DNA of 7,480 bases, from the NCBI GenBank assembly GCA_021817625.1, contig JAKASY010000081.1:1-7480 (forward strand), written 5' to 3'. Below, one piece after another: positions 1,402-6,754 of this stretch (within the stretch, counting starts at the first letter, position 1; each line of letters opens with the position of its first letter). Source of the stretch: Bacillota bacterium (GTDB lineage Bacteria > Bacillota_E > JAJZYS01 > JAILZS01). The notes under the pieces are model-generated. The model did not search any database. It saw only the letters and a program-made list of their open reading frames with translations, and had not been told where the DNA came from. Made by a program: the position numbers and the translations under genes.

Positions 1402-2751
1402 TTAGGCCTCGACCCGGGCCTGCTTGCTTCCGGGACCGGCGGCCGGCGCCGAAGGTGCGACGACCGCCCGGCCGCTACTGGCCAGGAGGGCGGCGATCGT
1501 CCAGACCACCCCGGCGACCAAAGCGGCGAAGCCGACGGCCGTGAGCCAGAACGGGAGGCTCGTGCGCGTCGGCGTCCAGAACACGTAGGAGAGACCACCG
1601 AGGAAGGCGAGACCGCCGCCGCCGGTCAGGAGGGTGGCGATGCGGGTGCGCGTGGCGGCGTCGGCGACCATACGGTGAAGGATCTGCAGGACGACCATGA
1701 CGGCCGGGATGATGAAGAACGCGAAGTCCTGGTGCCAGAACGTGAACACCGCGTCGGATGTGGCGCCCTTGGCCTGGAATACGGTCTCCGAGAGCTCGAT
1801 GTAGTAGCCTGCGATCACGACCGTGGCGAGGATCATCAGGCTGAAGGCCGCGCTCGCCCAATGAAGCAGGTTGTCTTCGAGGCGTTCCAGGCTGACGCCC
1901 ACTAGGGCGATCGTGGCGCCCAGCATGACCCCGAGGCCGGTGACCAGATCGTCGCCGGCGATACCGTTCACGCCATGCGGTCCGAAGGCGAAGAACGTGG
2001 GGGGCTGGGCCTGGGTGAAGCCAGCGACAACGTAGATCAAGGTCATCAGAACGGTACCGACCACGATGTCCCAGAGACCGATCTTGACCCACCGGTTTAG
2101 CCCGTCGGCGCGCTCCTGCGCGAAGGCGGCGACCGCCGTCGCGGCCAGAAGCCCGAGCACCGCAACCACCATTTCATGCGAGTGGGACGTGATCAGGTTG
2201 GCCTCCCAGGCCGCTGGCGAGAGGCCAATGAAGTGCGCGTAGGACGCCAGGACGGGCGGCCATGGGCCGAAGTCCAGGATCCAGCCGGCGACGTGGCCCA
2301 TCACGGCGGCAAAGAAGCCACTCACGGCCGAGACCGTGGCCACCCACGCCACAAGGCGGCCGGTGGCGCGGGCGCGACCGTACAAGCCGAGCGCGAGGGT
2401 GATGAGGATCTCGTCCAGGAAGAAGAAGGAGACGATCTGCATCCACAGAGGCACGGTGTCGGCGATGCTGCGGTCGAAGATGCCGCCCACGCCGCTGAGC
2501 ACGGTGGCGCCAAGCGTCCCCCACAGCATGAGGGCGCGCAAGCCCTTGTGCTCGCATTCGAAGACGTCGAAGGCCACAAGCCCGATGAGGCCGACCATAC
2601 CGATGAGCAGGCCGTGCAGGTACATGGTGTGGGCGTAGTTGATGTTGGCGGCAGCCGCCGGTTCGGTGAAGAACGGCAGCGAGACGAAGGCACTGGCCAA
2701 GCTGAGAGCGCCCAGCCAGATCAGGATGCCGATGATCACCCGGTACTCCAC
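1402..2751 (-). CDS. Polytopic membrane protein (~12 TM), histidine-rich, distantly heme-copper-oxidase-like
   Basis: An integral membrane protein of about 449 residues with roughly 12 hydrophobic helices. From the GTG at 2751, helices fall near residues 3-25, 38-62, 72-90, 102-123, 132-160, 185-210, 223-248, 265-287, 298-320, 338-360, 370-392 and 398-425. A Pro/Ala-rich tail follows. Histidines lie in or at the ends of helices: H41 and H46 (AHTMYLHG) in helix 2, H153 in helix 5, H173 after it, H190 and H192 (SHSHE) at the start of helix 6, and H340 (FWHQDF) in helix 10. Twelve helices with His in 2, 6 and 10 recall heme-copper oxidase subunit I or NO reductase. The His-His of helix 7 and the second His of helix 10 are absent, so catalysis is not claimed. 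GTG 2751 is preferred because GAGGA precedes it by 6 bases; an upstream GTG at 2811 would add 20 Pro/Arg/Gly-rich residues. It stands alone on this strand and its family is not recognised with certainty. Confidence 0.72.
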   Translation of the reverse strand: MEYRVIIGILIWLGALSLASAFVSLPFFTEPAAAANINYAHTMYLHGLLIGMVGLIGLVAFDVFECEHKGLRALMLWGTLGATVLSGVGGIFDRSIADTVPLWMQIVSFFFLDEILITLALGLYGRARATGRLVAWVATVSAVSGFFAAVMGHVAGWILDFGPWPPVLASYAHFIGLSPAAWEANLITSHSHEMVVAVLGLLAATAVAAFAQERADGLNRWVKIGLWDIVVGTVLMTLIYVVAGFTQAQPPTFFAFGPHGVNGIAGDDLVTGLGVMLGATIALVGVSLERLEDNLLHWASAAFSLMILATVVIAGYYIELSETVFQAKGATSDAVFTFWHQDFAFFIIPAVMVVLQILHRMVADAATRTRIATLLTGGGGLAFLGGLSYVFWTPTRTSLPFWLTAVGFAALVAGVVWTIAALLASSGRAVVAPSAPAAGPGSKQARVEA

Positions 2752-3050
2752 ACTAATTCCTCGCGGGTTCAGGAACCCCGGGCGGGGCGTGCCTCCGATC
2801 ACCCGAATCACGTCCTCGGTTCCTTGTATGTTTCATGGCGACCGGTAGGGGCGCCGGTGGGGGTTGGTAAGCGGGGGCGGCCGAGGCGAGTCCTCGAGCA
2901 CTCGACCGGCCGAACCCGCCCCCCTTGGGCCCCCAGGAGGGGCCACGCGGCCCTGTCCGGTCGGCGTTGCTCGCTGGGCCGGGGTTCCCGTACACCCTGT
3001 GGATAACCGACTGCGCGACGCGCCACCCGAACGCAGGTGGAGTGAGCGTG
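2752..3050. other. Divergent intergenic region with GC-rich hairpin and one DnaA-box-like 9-mer
   Basis: About 300 bases separate the leftward membrane-protein gene from the rightward ORF at 3051, so promoters for both should lie here; I see no convincing -35/-10 pair. A strong GC hairpin can form at 2918-2943 (GCCCC pairing with GGGGC, plus an inner CC/GG and GGG/CCC with small bulges). TGTGGATAA at 2998-3006 is the exact complement of the DnaA-box consensus, but it is a single copy. Confidence 0.4.
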
Positions 3051-3455
3051 ATGGCGTTTGTGCGGATACGCAAAGACTGCGCCGAGCTTCTGACCACGCG
3101 GTATCTGGGTGGCGGCCGCTCCCAACAGGTGCTGTTGGCGAGCCTGCCTGCCTACTACGTATCTGCGGCGGAGCAGCGGGCGATCGAGGCGAAGTTTCCC
3201 GATCTGCACTTCGATTGGCTGGCGATCAATCGAGCGCTCGCCCGCGGCGACAGGCGGGCGCCGCCCCCGCCCGGCCCGTATATGGCGTGGGCCGACGTCG
3301 AACACCTGCTGCGCGCCCTGGCCCGCAGAGAGCGTGAGCACGACGGCTTGCCGTCCGATATCCACACCTTGGAGGCGGCAGCCGAGGTACTCACCGGCAT
3401 GCGTTTGCGCGGTGAACCATGGCCCCTCGAGGACGACCGATCCGAGCCAATATGA
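3051..3455 (+). CDS. Hypothetical protein, 134 aa, unknown function
   Basis: I do not recognise this protein by name. The ATG at 3051 is preceded by AGGTGGAG about 8 bases upstream; the frame is open further upstream but loses protein-like composition there. The N-terminus, MAFVRIRKDCAELLTTRYLG, followed by GGRSQQVLLASL, resembles the short beta-rich opening seen on many mobile-element-associated hypothetical proteins (Fxxxx..Y.L...YR.GGK..Q..L..LG type); this comparison is from memory. Next come a helix with FPDLHFDWLAI (about 47-57), a proline-rich linker (about 69-76) and two charged helices. No signal peptide or membrane segment is visible. It ends only a few bases before the presumed IS110 left region, so it may be host DNA beside the insertion or a passenger. 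A long reverse frame over the same DNA looks like a shadow. Confidence 0.6.
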   Translation: MAFVRIRKDCAELLTTRYLGGGRSQQVLLASLPAYYVSAAEQRAIEAKFPDLHFDWLAINRALARGDRRAPPPPGPYMAWADVEHLLRALARREREHDGLPSDIHTLEAAAEVLTGMRLRGEPWPLEDDRSEPI

Positions 3456-3558
3456 CATCAGATGACCACGGTCGCCGGGTTCTGGACCCGCCCCGTCATC
3501 CGATGGCAGGCACGCACAGATTCACGACCCCGTTTCGCCACCGATCAGGAAGTTGGGG

Positions 3559-3775
3559 GTCTCCAGTCGAACCGGTCCGCGAGGTCCGGTGGAGGTAAGG
3601 CCGCGGTTCCTTGCGCTACGACGCTTACAAAGAGTGCCGCCTCCGCGCCAAGCGACTGAACTCTAACTCCCACGGTGCACCCGTCGTCGGACCCCCTAGG
3701 CAGCAGTCGGGGGCATGTTGCACCGTCGAACGACCAAGTGCTGATCCTGGCAAGGCTGCCCACGTCGCTTGGTCG
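3559..3775 (+). ncRNA. Candidate IS110 bridge RNA
   Basis: In the 360 bases before the transposase I find three ordered structures. (1) A 5' hairpin at 3571-3590: ACCGG pairs with CCGGT, then a T-T mismatch, CC/GG and a GCGA (GNRA) tetraloop. CTCC (3561-3564) and GGAG (3591-3594) extend the stem beyond a one-sided bulge. (2) An outer stem ACGGTGCA (3672-3679) with TGCACCGT (3719-3726) and an inner stem CCCCC (3692-3696) with GGGGG (3709-3713). This leaves an internal loop of 3680-3691 opposite 3714-3718. (3) An outer stem CGACCAAG (3731-3738) with CTTGGTCG (3768-3775), lengthened by a wobble and a G-C pair, and an inner stem GGCA (3749-3752) with TGCC (3757-3760). This leaves an internal loop of 3741-3748 opposite 3761-3765. 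A 5' hairpin followed by two internal-loop hairpins is the known plan of IS110 bridge RNAs, with a target-binding then a donor-binding loop. Exact RNA ends are unknown. Confidence 0.6.
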
Positions 3776-3817
3776 GCTGGAGGCCCTCCATTTCGGACCA
3801 CCCCACGACGAAAGGGG

Positions 3818-5086
3818 GTGAGCATCATCCCTGAACTCCATATCGGAGTGGACGTTTCCCTCCGCAGCCACAGCGTGGCCTTTGTCCGCAGCGATGATCT
3901 GGCCGTCCTGCACCGCATGACCGTCCAAAACGACGCCGGCGGCAGCCTGGCCCTGGCCGAGCAGATCCAGCACCTGTGCGCCCAGCACGCGTTCGATCAG
4001 GTCAAGGTCGCGCTCGAGGCCACGGGCGTCTACGCCTGGCACCTGGCGGTGTTCCTGAGCGGTCTCGACGTCCCACACCCGCACAAGCCCCAGGTGTTCA
4101 TCCTCCAGCCGCGCGCCGTCAAGCACTATCGCGAGAGCTTCGGCTCCAAGAAGCCCAAGAGCGACGGCGCCGACCGCCTGCTCCTCGCCCGCATGCTCGG
4201 GCATCGAGAGCTCCTACCACGGCCGTTCGCCTTGGACGACCGCACCCTACCGCTACAGCGCCTCACACGCCACCGCTATCACTTGGTGCGCCAGCTCGTC
4301 CGCAACAAGAACTACGCGGCCAGCTACCTGTTCCTCAAGGCGAGTACGCTCGCCCAGACCCGCCCGCTGTCCGACCCCTTCGGCGCCAGCGCCTCGGAGA
4401 TCCTCCTCGAGTACTGTGCCGTGGAGGACATCGCCAAGGCATCGGTCGACGAACTGGCCGGCGTGCTGAACCGCGCGGCGAGGGGCACCATCGCCGATCC
4501 CGCCGCGATCGCCCTGGCGTACAAGCGCGCGGCCGAGGACGCCTACCGGCTGCCCGAACGCCTCAAGCAGCCCATCCACCAGATCCTGAGCCTGACCATC
4601 CAGGACATCCGCCACCTCGAGCACCAGATCGAGGCGGTGGATCGCCTGATCGACCGCGAACCGATGACCCGCAATAACCGCCTGCGCACGATCCCGGGCA
4701 TCGGCCCCGTGTTCAGCGCCGGTATCCTGGCGGAGATCGGCCGGATCGAGAACTTCCCCGACGACGACCACCTGGCGCAGTTCGCCGGCCTCACCTGGCC
4801 CGGGCACCAGAGCGGCGACTTCACGGCCGAGGACACGCCGATGGCCCGGACGGGCAACGTCTACCTCCGCCACTACGTCGTGGCCGCAGCCAACAGCGTC
4901 CGGCAACATGACGCCGGCTTTGCGGCCTACTACCACAAGAAGTACGACGAGGCGGCCGAGCACCAGCATAAGCGTGCCGAGGTGCTGACCGCCCGCAAGC
5001 TCCTGCGCCTGATCTTCGCCCTGCTGCGCGACGACCGGGCATACGATCCAACCCACATCCCGACCCGGCAACGGGTCGCCACCTGA
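3818..5086 (+). CDS. IS110-family transposase (DEDD/serine recombinase)
   Basis: This recombinase excises and inserts the element; in studied IS110 members it does so guided by a bridge RNA. From GTG 3818 it has 422 residues. The N-terminal RuvC-like domain carries the DEDD set: D12 (GVDVS), E67 (ALEATG), D116 and D119 (KSDGADR). A helical middle region (about 140-280) leads to the C-terminal Transposase_20 domain with an HhH-like segment TIPGIGPVFSAGILAEIG (291-308). QSGDF follows, with S332 a likely catalytic serine; this is inferred from its distance to the C-terminus in the family. The usual TARKLLRLIFALL helix is at 391-403. No frameshift or lost residue is seen, so it is probably active. 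The start is chosen just before the family's N-terminal strand, with AAAGGGG immediately upstream; that spacing is short and may keep translation low. The frame is open upstream to 3611, but that part overlaps the candidate RNA. Confidence 0.93.
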   Translation: MSIIPELHIGVDVSLRSHSVAFVRSDDLAVLHRMTVQNDAGGSLALAEQIQHLCAQHAFDQVKVALEATGVYAWHLAVFLSGLDVPHPHKPQVFILQPRAVKHYRESFGSKKPKSDGADRLLLARMLGHRELLPRPFALDDRTLPLQRLTRHRYHLVRQLVRNKNYAASYLFLKASTLAQTRPLSDPFGASASEILLEYCAVEDIAKASVDELAGVLNRAARGTIADPAAIALAYKRAAEDAYRLPERLKQPIHQILSLTIQDIRHLEHQIEAVDRLIDREPMTRNNRLRTIPGIGPVFSAGILAEIGRIENFPDDDHLAQFAGLTWPGHQSGDFTAEDTPMARTGNVYLRHYVVAAANSVRQHDAGFAAYYHKKYDEAAEHQHKRAEVLTARKLLRLIFALLRDDRAYDPTHIPTRQRVAT

Positions 5087-5202
5087 CTCCAGCTACTGCC
5101 TGGTGCGCTATTCCATATCGCCCTTCCAGGCTGGGGGTATGGTTCTTTGTGTTCATCTTCGTTTCCCCCCTTGACATTCACACCCCACGTCTTATTGATT
5201 AG
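5087..5202 (+). other. Presumed right end of the IS110 element
   Basis: The bases after the transposase stop are noticeably richer in A+T than the rest of the window, especially 5140-5205. They hold the promoter-like sequence at 5171-5198. No coding frame of note and no terminal inverted repeat were seen. The exact RE boundary is not determined. Confidence 0.45.
5171..5198 (+). promoter_or_regulatory. Outward-facing sigma70-like promoter or lone -35 box
   Basis: TTGACA at 5171-5176 is a perfect -35 hexamer. Sixteen bases later TATTGA (5193-5198) is a weak -10. It reads rightward out of the IS toward the zinc-ribbon gene. In IS110 elements a -35 near the right end can join a -10 at the left end when the excised circle closes, which raises expression of the RNA and transposase. 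The same box could serve either purpose; no experiment supports it here. Confidence 0.4.
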
Positions 5203-5600: not shown

Positions 5601-5637
5601 GGTGAGGACGTGCTGGCGCTGCGCGACTACCAGCGAG
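5601..5637 (+). repeat. Copy 2 of the 37-base imperfect direct repeat (helicase start)
   Basis: Matches 1227-1263 at 31 of 37 positions without gaps. It includes the end of the GGAGGTGAGG ribosome binding site, the GTG start at 5610 and the first codons (VLALRDYQR) of the broken helicase. The two copies bracket about 4.3 kb of unrelated genes. Confidence 0.7.
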
Positions 5638-6754
5638 AGGCGATCGGGGCCATTGTGCGCGAGGCGAACGCCGGCGTGCGGCGCCAGCTCGTCCAGCTTC
5701 CGACCGGAGCGGGCAAGACCGTCATCGCCGCCGCCCTCTCGCAGAAGGCGCGCGGGCGCGTGCTCATGCTCGTCCACCGCGACGAGCTCGTGCGGCAGAG
5801 CGTCGAGAAGTTCGGCTGGGTGTGGCCGGGAGAAGAGATCGGGGTTGTCAAGGCCGAGCGCGACGAGCACGACCGTCGCGTGGTCGTGGCGTCCATCCAG
5901 ACGCTCGCGCACGAGGGCCGCCTCGACCGGCTCGACGCGAGCGCCTTCACCCTGGTCATCGCCGACGAAGCGCATCACGTCACGGCGGACACGTGGCTTC
6001 ACGTCCTGGAAGGACTCGACCTTCTGCCGCAGACCGTGCCCGGCCGCCTGCTCCTGGGTATCACGGCGACGCCCGCGCGCGCCGACGGCGTGGGCCTCGG
6101 TAACGTGTTCGAGAAGATCGTCTACAGAAAGCCCCTCCTAGATCTCATCGAAGCGGGCTATCTCGCCGACGTGAAGGGTGTCCGGGTCGAGACGCACCTC
6201 GACCTCGCGCGCGTACGCATGACCGCCGGCGACTTCAACGCGCACGACCTCTCGCTCGCGGTCGACACGGAGAACCGCAACCGCCTCATCGCGGGCAGGA
6301 CGTCTACCTCATGCGCGGCGAAGGCGGCCTGTGGAACGTCGTGCTGCGCTCGCGCGATGGGCAGCGGGACCTCGCCGGCCAGGCGCTGCCGCTCGACTAC
6401 GCCCAGGGCGTCGCGGAGGAGCACGTCCGCCAGAACGGGCTCGGGTGGTTCGCGGGCAAGGACGCACAGTGGCGTTCGCGTCCCCCAAGCGAGAAGCAGG
6501 CAGAACTCCTGCGCTCGCTCGGCGTCCAGGCCCCGGCGGGGCTGACGCGGGAGGGCGCGCAGGATCTCATCCGCGAGGGACTGCGGGAGCGGGCTCTCAA
6601 GGACCCGGAGGCGCCCTGGCGGAGCGAACCCGCCAGCGACAAGCAGAAGGAGTGGATGGAGAAGCACCACTTCCGGGTGCGCGAGGGCATCACCAAGGGT
6701 GAGGTGGCCGACGTCATGTCGCGGCTGACGCGGCGCCCGAAGGCGATGCCGTAG
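5610..6754 (+). pseudogene. Phage-type DEAD/DEAH superfamily 2 helicase, disrupted
   Basis: ATP-dependent DNA helicase of the kind found in phage replication modules, now broken. From GTG 5610 (GGAGG 7 bases upstream) the first RecA domain is complete: RDYQ (5-8), Walker A PTGAGKT (31-37), motif Ia LVHRDEL (54-60), VASIQTL (93-99), DEAH (119-122) and TATP (152-155). At ENRNRLIAG (221-229, near base 6296) sensible protein stops in this frame. It resumes in another frame as DVYLMRGEGGLWNVVL from about 6299, running to 6754. The second RecA domain with motifs IV-VI is missing, so this is a deletion of several hundred bases with a frame change, not one indel. The tail holds two related modules (6470-6571, 6617-6718), each WRS..P.S[ED]KQ followed by a T+G..D[LV] helix. 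Left frame alone: 5610-6545, with a nonsense end. An assembly join is the main alternative. Confidence 0.8.

Follow-up and report, generated by a model that had tools for sequence, protein, structure and literature searches.

A bridge RNA candidate with readable guides in an IS110-group element of a Bacillota bacterium

The IS110-family element IS900 of Mycobacterium avium subsp. paratuberculosis reportedly targets translation initiation signals, and it splits the Shine-Dalgarno sequence from the start codon. The bridge RNA of IS621 is given as 177 nt long in excerpts of its description (PMC11208160), and positions 34-98 are laid out as a stem, the left target guide (LTG), a stem loop and the right target guide (RTG), followed at 110-177 by a stem, the left donor guide (LDG), a stem loop and the right donor guide (RDG; excerpts of PMC11208158). 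For ISEc21 and ISMch6, excerpts of PMC11187229 report a relative with changed guide bases lying in a correspondingly changed target, an instance of natural redirection.

We examined 7,480 nt of a contig from a Bacillota bacterium (hereafter the window, whose coordinates are used throughout), which very probably carries a complete-looking IS110-group element at 2823..5192 on the plus strand, from the left core CT (2823-2824) to the right core CT (5191-5192), with a left end holding the gene of a bridge RNA (3548-3792) that would serve the transposase at 3818-5086. At the level of sequence, comparison with relatives revealed the ends of the element, the structure of the RNA, the matches of its guides and a site preference; the preference of the clade for ribosome-binding sites, the changing target guides and a passenger gene are the unusual parts. 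The relatives comprised the best 80 of 272 from a scan of species genomes plus 7 from viral contigs, making 88 sources with the window.

Transposase, element ends and passenger gene

The plus-strand frame at 3818..5086 encodes an IS110-family RNA-guided transposase of 422 aa with a GTG start, confirming the transposase that a first-pass annotation of this DNA had placed downstream of its proposed RNA: both Pfam domains (PF01548 and PF02371) were found, and the NF033542 model 'IS110 family RNA-guided transposase' matched with 212 bits against a cut-off of 140. In alignment A1, E67, D116, D119 and S332 were invariant and D12 nearly so, and by order, spacing and motif rather than by structure, residues D12, E67, D116, D119 and S332 of the window protein correspond to D11, E60, D102, D105 and S241 of IS621. 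Membership in the IS110 group is supported by features that can be tested in sequence, namely a DEDD RuvC-like domain with a Tnp_20 domain carrying the catalytic serine, and a non-coding RNA in a left end that is longer (995 nt, passenger ORF included) than the right end (106 nt). The right end had no RNA model match, and the guide-RNA placement of the IS1111 type was thereby not seen; nor did the window element have the subterminal inverted repeats of 7-17 bp of the IS1111 group. The longest exact inverted repeat between the two 50-nt tips was 6 nt, a length equalled in 187 of 300 shuffles.

Homology to the closest relative among the best 80 of 272, L001 (a Bacillota MAG with an 89% identical transposase), formed one continuous match of 87% identity over 2822-5192 that stopped at both cores. 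Boundaries were set by flank divergence in seven of the nine multi-copy groups, such as those of H. coagulans 36D1 and Paenibacillus sp. 2.1, while the other two lacked clear ends. These groups start with CT-CGTATA at the left and finish with TTGACA...ACC....CT at the right, and TTGACA preceded the right boundary in all seven groups, which had been resolved without motifs. The right tip of the window element (5171..5192, plus strand) has the same motifs, reading TTGACATTCACACCCCACGT-CT, with TTGACA at 5171-5176 as a -35 half, ACACCCCACGT, and the core CT at 5191-5192; the right-end motif was located in 78 of the 88 sources. At the left tip (2823..2832, plus strand), the core CT is followed by TGTATG, where relatives start with CT(C/T)GTAT, and TATGTT at 2827-2832 resembles the -10 half of a circle-junction promoter. 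The ends of the window element were thus placed by homology to one element (L001) and by motif matches, and among relatives the left end was chosen by hand where several motifs occurred. A 19-base query for the empty site had no exact match in the viral contigs.

When the ends of the window element are joined, the junction reads TTGACA-18-TATGTT, which is promoter-like in sequence. Across the 31 elements with both ends, the -10-like hexamer lay 17 nt from TTGACA in 27, 18 nt in 3 (including the window) and 19 nt in 1, and 23 of the hexamers shared 5 or 6 bases with TATAAT, another 6 shared 4 and the last 2 shared 3; this agreement is partly built in, because elements were picked by motifs containing TTGACA and GTAT and the best spacing from 15 to 19 was taken, so that the informative parts of the tally are the spacing and the last bases of the -10 hexamer only. 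The multi-copy groups were not picked by motif.

Inside the left end and upstream of the bridge RNA lies a passenger ORF of 134 aa (MAFVR...; 3051..3455, plus strand) that is common to the window and L001, with 38 of 57 substitutions between them at third positions over 115 codons. It is very unlikely that the left end begins instead near 3532 and that this ORF belongs to a host site shared by the two, a reading suggested by the poor conservation of 3456-3531 (62.8%) against the identity of 3532-3547 with L001, and by the distance from left tip to RNA: 726 nt in the window and 727 nt in L001, compared with 47-469 nt for the 29 further elements whose two ends were located. Homology extends to 2822 and ends at a left-end motif shared with relatives, the flanks beyond being different; this motif, searched as CT(C/T)(G/A)TAT, occurs within 2301-3818 solely at 2823; and a core at that position yields both a target that matches the guide and a junction promoter. 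We therefore retain 2823 as the left end and treat the ORF as part of the element.

Protein relatives of the passenger (P0122-P0183) form a small uncharacterised family, and the ORF had no family match at E <= 0.01 in Pfam, NCBIfam or PHROGs; an AlphaFold2 model (bbb-aaaa, pLDDT 81) matched no solved fold at E <= 0.001. The tail of one relative, P0127, for which the protein sequence alone was at hand, equals a translation of RNA positions 3560-3595, so the P0127 gene is expected to lead directly into an RNA of this kind. Among 398 genomes of the phylum, L001 aside, one passenger homologue adjoins a serine recombinase (L115), a second adjoins a Mutator-type transposase, the stop and start of the two overlapping (L116), and a third on the same contig as the second has no transposase directly upstream (L117). 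Six other elements (L023, L012, L013, L011, L050 and L052) have long left ends too, with 738-845 nt to the transposase match, and carried no passenger ORF homologue at E < 1.

Phage-like replication genes flank the insertion at 1-1209 and 5610-6754, comprising a DNA polymerase A cut by the window edge, a MazG-like gene and a RadD-like helicase. Similarity to the helicase ends near 6297 and a separate frame occupies 6311-6754, so the region looks decayed.

Structure and conservation of the bridge RNA

The first-pass annotation had proposed a bridge RNA upstream of the transposase, and one is present at about the place it gave (3559-3775); the domains and guides that it assigned were mostly wrong. 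We built a covariance model, R1, from the window and seven relatives; its only match in the window covers 3548-3791 with 240 bits (the window being in the training set), and the RNA gene as modelled runs over 3548..3792 on the plus strand with predicted ends. A closing helix, P1 (3556-3568/3775-3787), encloses a 5′ hairpin, a target-binding loop and a donor-binding loop, all three conserved and all on the plus strand. The 5′ hairpin with a GNRA loop claimed from the single sequence was borne out at 3571..3590, where the loop is GCGA and the helix moderately conserved (pairing in 61.8% of cells of alignment A2 and 79.3% of A3). The target-binding loop (3591..3644) has an outer helix (3591-3596/3639-3644 plus 3599-3601/3636-3638) whose cells are 95.8% paired and in which 4 of 9 pairs changed on both sides, and an inner hairpin at 3613-3624. 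In the donor-binding loop (3648..3772), P3 (3648-3656/3764-3772) is followed inward by P4 (3677-3680/3738-3741), which closes P6 (3683-3687/3730-3734) and P5 (3692-3698/3707-3713, loop GGCAGCAG).

Alignment A2 was a structure-free MAFFT alignment of eight upstream regions (the window, L001-L006 and L008). In it, 76.8% of cells were paired; sliding the partners by 1-3 columns gave 36.5-49.5%, a control that is partly biased because the structure was drawn from the same sequences; two-sided changes occurred in 28 of 57 pairs, a count reached in none of 500 shuffles. P3 and P6 were paired in only 56.1% and 51.4% of A2 cells, where they look misregistered, and in 67.9-80.2% in A3. The model-fitted alignment A3 (47 distinct rows), which leans towards the model, had 83.9% of cells paired and two-sided changes in 55 of 56 pairs; for P1, such changes were found in 7 of 13 pairs in A2 and in all 13 in A3.

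The search with R1 covered the window together with 64 of 113 loci, 65 sources in all, with one or a few taken per multi-copy set. It gave 42 matches at E <= 0.01 in 41 of the 65 sources, including 33 of the 57 sources outside the training set; the matches precede the transposase, in most cases by no more than about 100 nt. For the guide comparisons below, 7 partial or duplicate rows (L026, L070 and L058, and second rows of L037, L109, L009 and L008) were removed from 49 model matches, which left 42. Three loci in other genomes (L109, L108 and L110) matched with E values of 3.4e-34, 1.4e-32 and 6.2e-22. The remaining 24 sources had no match at E <= 0.01, and some of them are fragments or have distant transposases. 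Seven (L012, L013, L023, L024, L051, L065 and L085) were unmatched despite typical left ends, so R1 does not cover the clade.

Two matches were unusually placed. That at L022 891-1152 lies about 1,000 nt upstream of the transposase, whose match is at 2196, and by eye a second bridge-RNA-like stretch sits beside the transposase, possibly from a nested or degenerate second element. A second match at L037 4986-5224 is downstream of the first element and has the same guides, possibly as a neighbouring copy in B. dakarensis. We also noted that loop bases GCAGCAG (3700-3706) could pair with GCTGC (3755-3759) after the right donor guide, a candidate pseudoknot that by eye is present in close relatives and absent from some wider relatives.

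The single sequence is far less informative than these alignments. Folding energy was ordinary for 3559-3776 (z -0.29, 78 of 200 shuffles as good) and for 3532-3817 (z -1.24, 20 of 200), a Rfam search returned no family up to E 1, and at least two perfect repeats of the kind first noticed arose in 23 of 1,000 dinucleotide shuffles of 3559-3775, which makes them mildly unusual; taken together, these results make a claim from the single sequence weak. The repeats in question are two 8-bp stems, 3672-3679/3719-3726 (ACGGTGCA/TGCACCGT) and 3731-3738/3768-3775 (CGACCAAG/CTTGGTCG), which are indeed perfect in the window and were taken to close the target and donor loops, with guides at 3680-3691/3714-3718 and 3741-3748/3761-3765. 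That arrangement now appears exceedingly improbable, even though two such stems are infrequent in shuffles and CACGT (3761-3765) occurs in the right end. The stems lacked covariation support in A2 (50.8% of cells paired against a shuffled mean of 48.1%, with 62 of 500 shuffles as high, and 48.4% for the best slid control), and they exclude or cross the covarying helices P3, P4 and P6. Over 33 elements, neither of the 5′ strands was related to its own targets, with 1,124 of 5,000 permutations as good for 3680-3691 and 2,333 of 5,000 for 3741-3748; strands 3714-3718 and 3761-3765 were compared with this element's junctions only, and CACGT at 3761-3765 matches both. The claimed order of target loop before donor loop holds, while the target loop itself (3591-3644) had been missed and both claimed hairpins fall inside the donor loop (3648-3772), the supposed target hairpin covering part of the left donor guide and P4-P6 and the supposed donor hairpin using the 3′ arm of P3. 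The first stem, kept in 59.4% of cells, may be a transient alternative pairing. Judged by the refutation criteria set out with the first-pass annotation, the original stems and guides would fall and the corrected RNA would stand, and its guides can be read from the sequence as had been claimed, at other strands than those proposed.

Guides and target sites

The left target guide, CGGTTC followed by the core CT, lies at 3604..3611 (plus strand); T3612 also matches, and the whole, CGGTTCCTT, is also found at the left junction and is identical at 9 of 9 positions to the insertion site CGGTTC-CT-T. For the comparison of left target guides with their own targets we retained 34 of the 42 elements, leaving out 6 without a usable left end, L035 (which repeats the RNA of L028) and L064 (no core in the guide). 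The mean match was 4.68 of 6 positions against 3.31 +/- 0.17 when permuted, with none of 20,000 permutations as high; the excess at own sites came mainly from positions -2 to -6, -1 being C in all. When permuted within 12 groups of close relatives (32 of the 34 elements), 38 of 20,000 reached the observed value, a weaker signal than in the global test, so kinship accounts for part of the latter. In eight of the 34 (L001, L004, L005, L036, L049, L053, L057 and L083), no more than 1-3 of the 6 positions agreed with the element's own left target. By eye, the targets of L004, L036, L057 and L025 look slipped by one base. The right target guide (3627..3632, plus strand) starts from the core-binding A3631 and G3632 and runs outward; over 33 elements, 2.15 of the first three positions paired against 1.62 when permuted (0 of 10,000 as high). 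In the window, the left target guide matches at 6 of 6 positions plus core, and the right one pairs at only 2 of 4.

Guides of the donor loop match the right and left ends of the element. The left donor guide, CCCACG (3669..3674, plus strand), is identical to the right end CCCACG-T-CT, a 6-nt match that does not extend to the core. Over the 31 elements with a readable right end, left donor guides had a mean longest match to their own right ends of 6.77 nt against 4.33 nt, and over 13 distinct right ends 7.62 against 4.43 nt, with 0 of 20,000 permutations as high in either case. The right donor guide, GCAAG (3750..3754, plus strand), pairs with CTTG(T) of the left end. Its discriminating base, with kinship uncontrolled, was A with CTT ends (9 elements) and G with CTC ends (25, plus 2 parsed at ATAGG instead of GCGAGG); the remainder were one A with a CTG end and five without a left end. 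Another apparent match, CCCACGTC at 3759-3766, equals the right end and was set aside as coincidence, since by eye it is not kept in the alignment of relatives.

These correspondences bear on whether the conserved stretch might act on the transposase as a structured leader or attenuator within its mRNA rather than as a guide, a reading to which we give almost no credence. The transposase start does follow closely on the stretch, and the frame of the transposase is free of stops from 3611 onward, yet agreement of guides with targets and with element ends in permutation tests would be unexpected for a leader. A guide RNA accounts for it far better, and its target guides appear to change faster than the rest of the molecule, as two pairs of sequences suggest: the RNAs of the window and L001 differ at 13 of 245 positions, 5 of them within the two target guides, and those of L004 and L005 have 11 differences, of which the target loop holds 10, including 6 within guides. 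L001 has one change relative to the left target guide of the window (3608, T to A) and its site also has A there, while it matches at only 3 of 6 positions overall. We also considered whether guides copy longer stretches of their sites; little excess was seen beyond -6 (0.18 against 0.26 at -7, and 0.44 against 0.33 at -8), so guide capture is not supported and the long match of the H. coagulans copy L028 was taken as chance.

It is a real, if lesser, possibility that a genuine RNA sits in an element that has lost its activity and survives as a relic within a decayed phage-like region, the guide matches being traces of past insertion. Adjoining phage-type genes look broken, and the right target and left donor guides match imperfectly. 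Against this, the transposase is open across 422 codons with its active-site residues conserved, changes relative to L001 favour third positions in the transposase (84 of 138) as in the passenger ORF, and all four guides are recognisable. We accordingly favour a complete-looking element over a relic.

The left target half (2809..2822) comprises, on the minus strand, the ribosome-binding site and GTG start of the gene at 1402-2811, reading AG-GAACCGAGGAC-GTG, and the insertion site before this gene is AGGAACCGAGGAC-GTG. The gene itself, whose ribosome-binding site the element occupies, encodes 469 aa and is membrane-protein-like by eye; it had no Pfam, NCBIfam, PHROG or PDB sequence match. Looking more broadly, we took the 88 sources (the best 80 of 272, the 7 from viral contigs and the window), of which 74 had a located left end, giving 71 unique flanks, and counted as a gene start that of any ORF of at least 50 codons, or 15 if running off the sequence. 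At 57 of the 71 sites, a gene directed away from the element started 3-15 nt from the core, the distance being 12-14 nt in 39 cases; with the test shifted by 25-500 nt, 11-24 of 66-70 passed. The 14 failing sites include that of L001. The flank often reads AGGAGG-N-ATG, so that the core borders the Shine-Dalgarno sequence on its 5′ side and the gene keeps that sequence. CTCCT occurs within 22 of the 34 left target guides and within 22 of the 34 targets, and guides of this kind look like an anti-Shine-Dalgarno. Insertion at a Shine-Dalgarno sequence beside a start codon, in one orientation, thus characterises 57 of 71 sites, with an exact cut that differs from that of IS900.

A literature search, with most subscription papers outside its reach, found none plainly linking a bridge RNA with Shine-Dalgarno sites. 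In the portions available, PMC3196728, PMC7288454 and PMC11616780 contain both 'IS110' and 'Shine-Dalgarno' in contexts unrelated to such targeting, the retrieved text of PMC7823733 draws no link of bridge RNA to Shine-Dalgarno sites, and the excerpts of PMC11208160 and PMC11187229 hold no passage on a bridge RNA directed to them.

Proposed mechanism and comparison with known systems

From the sequences we infer transcription of the RNA with ends near those modelled, its binding by the transposase, and activity. Once the element is excised as a circle, its right end would abut its left end and create the promoter TTGACA - 18 nt - TATGTT, from which the passenger gene, the bridge RNA and the transposase would be transcribed. 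The loop at 3591-3644 would present the left and right target guides and that at 3648-3772 the left and right donor guides, and the shared CT core would be where the recombinase exchanges strands, in the way demonstrated for IS621. Because the target guide of the clade is often like CCTCCT, the complement of the Shine-Dalgarno sequence, the element would land at the 5′ edge of ribosome-binding sites, and insertion would leave the gene's own Shine-Dalgarno sequence and start codon together. The window copy, with its changed guide CGGTTCCT, would have reached the ribosome-binding site of the minus-strand gene at 1402-2811 by the same route. More speculatively, and on balance doubtfully, the guide of the clade may imitate an anti-Shine-Dalgarno so that many gene starts become permitted, little-damaging sites with fast-changing target guides, and in the lineage of the window a transposon-associated passenger protein, encoded between promoter and bridge RNA, may act as an accessory or regulator of the recombinase.

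With the locus and its relatives, IS110 bridge RNAs can be read and aligned as a set, and sequence alone suffices to check each of the four guides. They also connect a short RNA guide with the targeting of ribosome-binding sites, which for IS900 is known from the title of Doran et al. 1997 in the reference list of PMC8141618. A single strand of six bases should determine whether insertion is directed to ribosome-binding sites generally or to one particular gene. For tool builders, the set contributes longer recombinases and RNAs with an added closing helix. There is also a lesson of method, in that two perfect stems in a single sequence gave the wrong guides, and comparison of relatives was needed.

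Among described systems, IS900 resembles the clade of the window as an IS110-family element that, by that title, targets translation initiation signals; at the window the Shine-Dalgarno sequence and start codon stay together on the left flank, unlike at IS900, for which the passages of the literature considered here mention no guide RNA basis. The likeness to IS621 is more extensive. In excerpts of PMC11208160 and PMC11208158, IS621 shares with the window the CT core, the order of 5′ hairpin, target loop and donor loop, the composition of each loop as a stem, left guide, stem loop and right guide, the placement of the RNA in a long left end, a circle-junction promoter, and a D/E/D/D plus Ser active site. 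It differs in that its transposase has 328 aa in the solved chain against 422 aa here, that the excerpts describe no helix closing the 5′ to the 3′ end as in the approximately 245-nt RNA of the window, that the targets here are ribosome-binding sites instead of the REP elements cited as an example for its family, and that, as excerpted, its left end carries no passenger gene. The seekRNA of ISEc21 and ISMch6 is likewise an IS110-type upstream guide RNA, although, going by the excerpts of PMC11187229, it is 74 nt long and targets the inside of IS3-family transposase genes, unlike the window. The ISCro4 bridge recombinase (PDB 9t56) belongs to the same family and gave the best profile match among solved chains (4.9e-21), with a shorter protein of 341 aa against the 422 aa encoded in the window.
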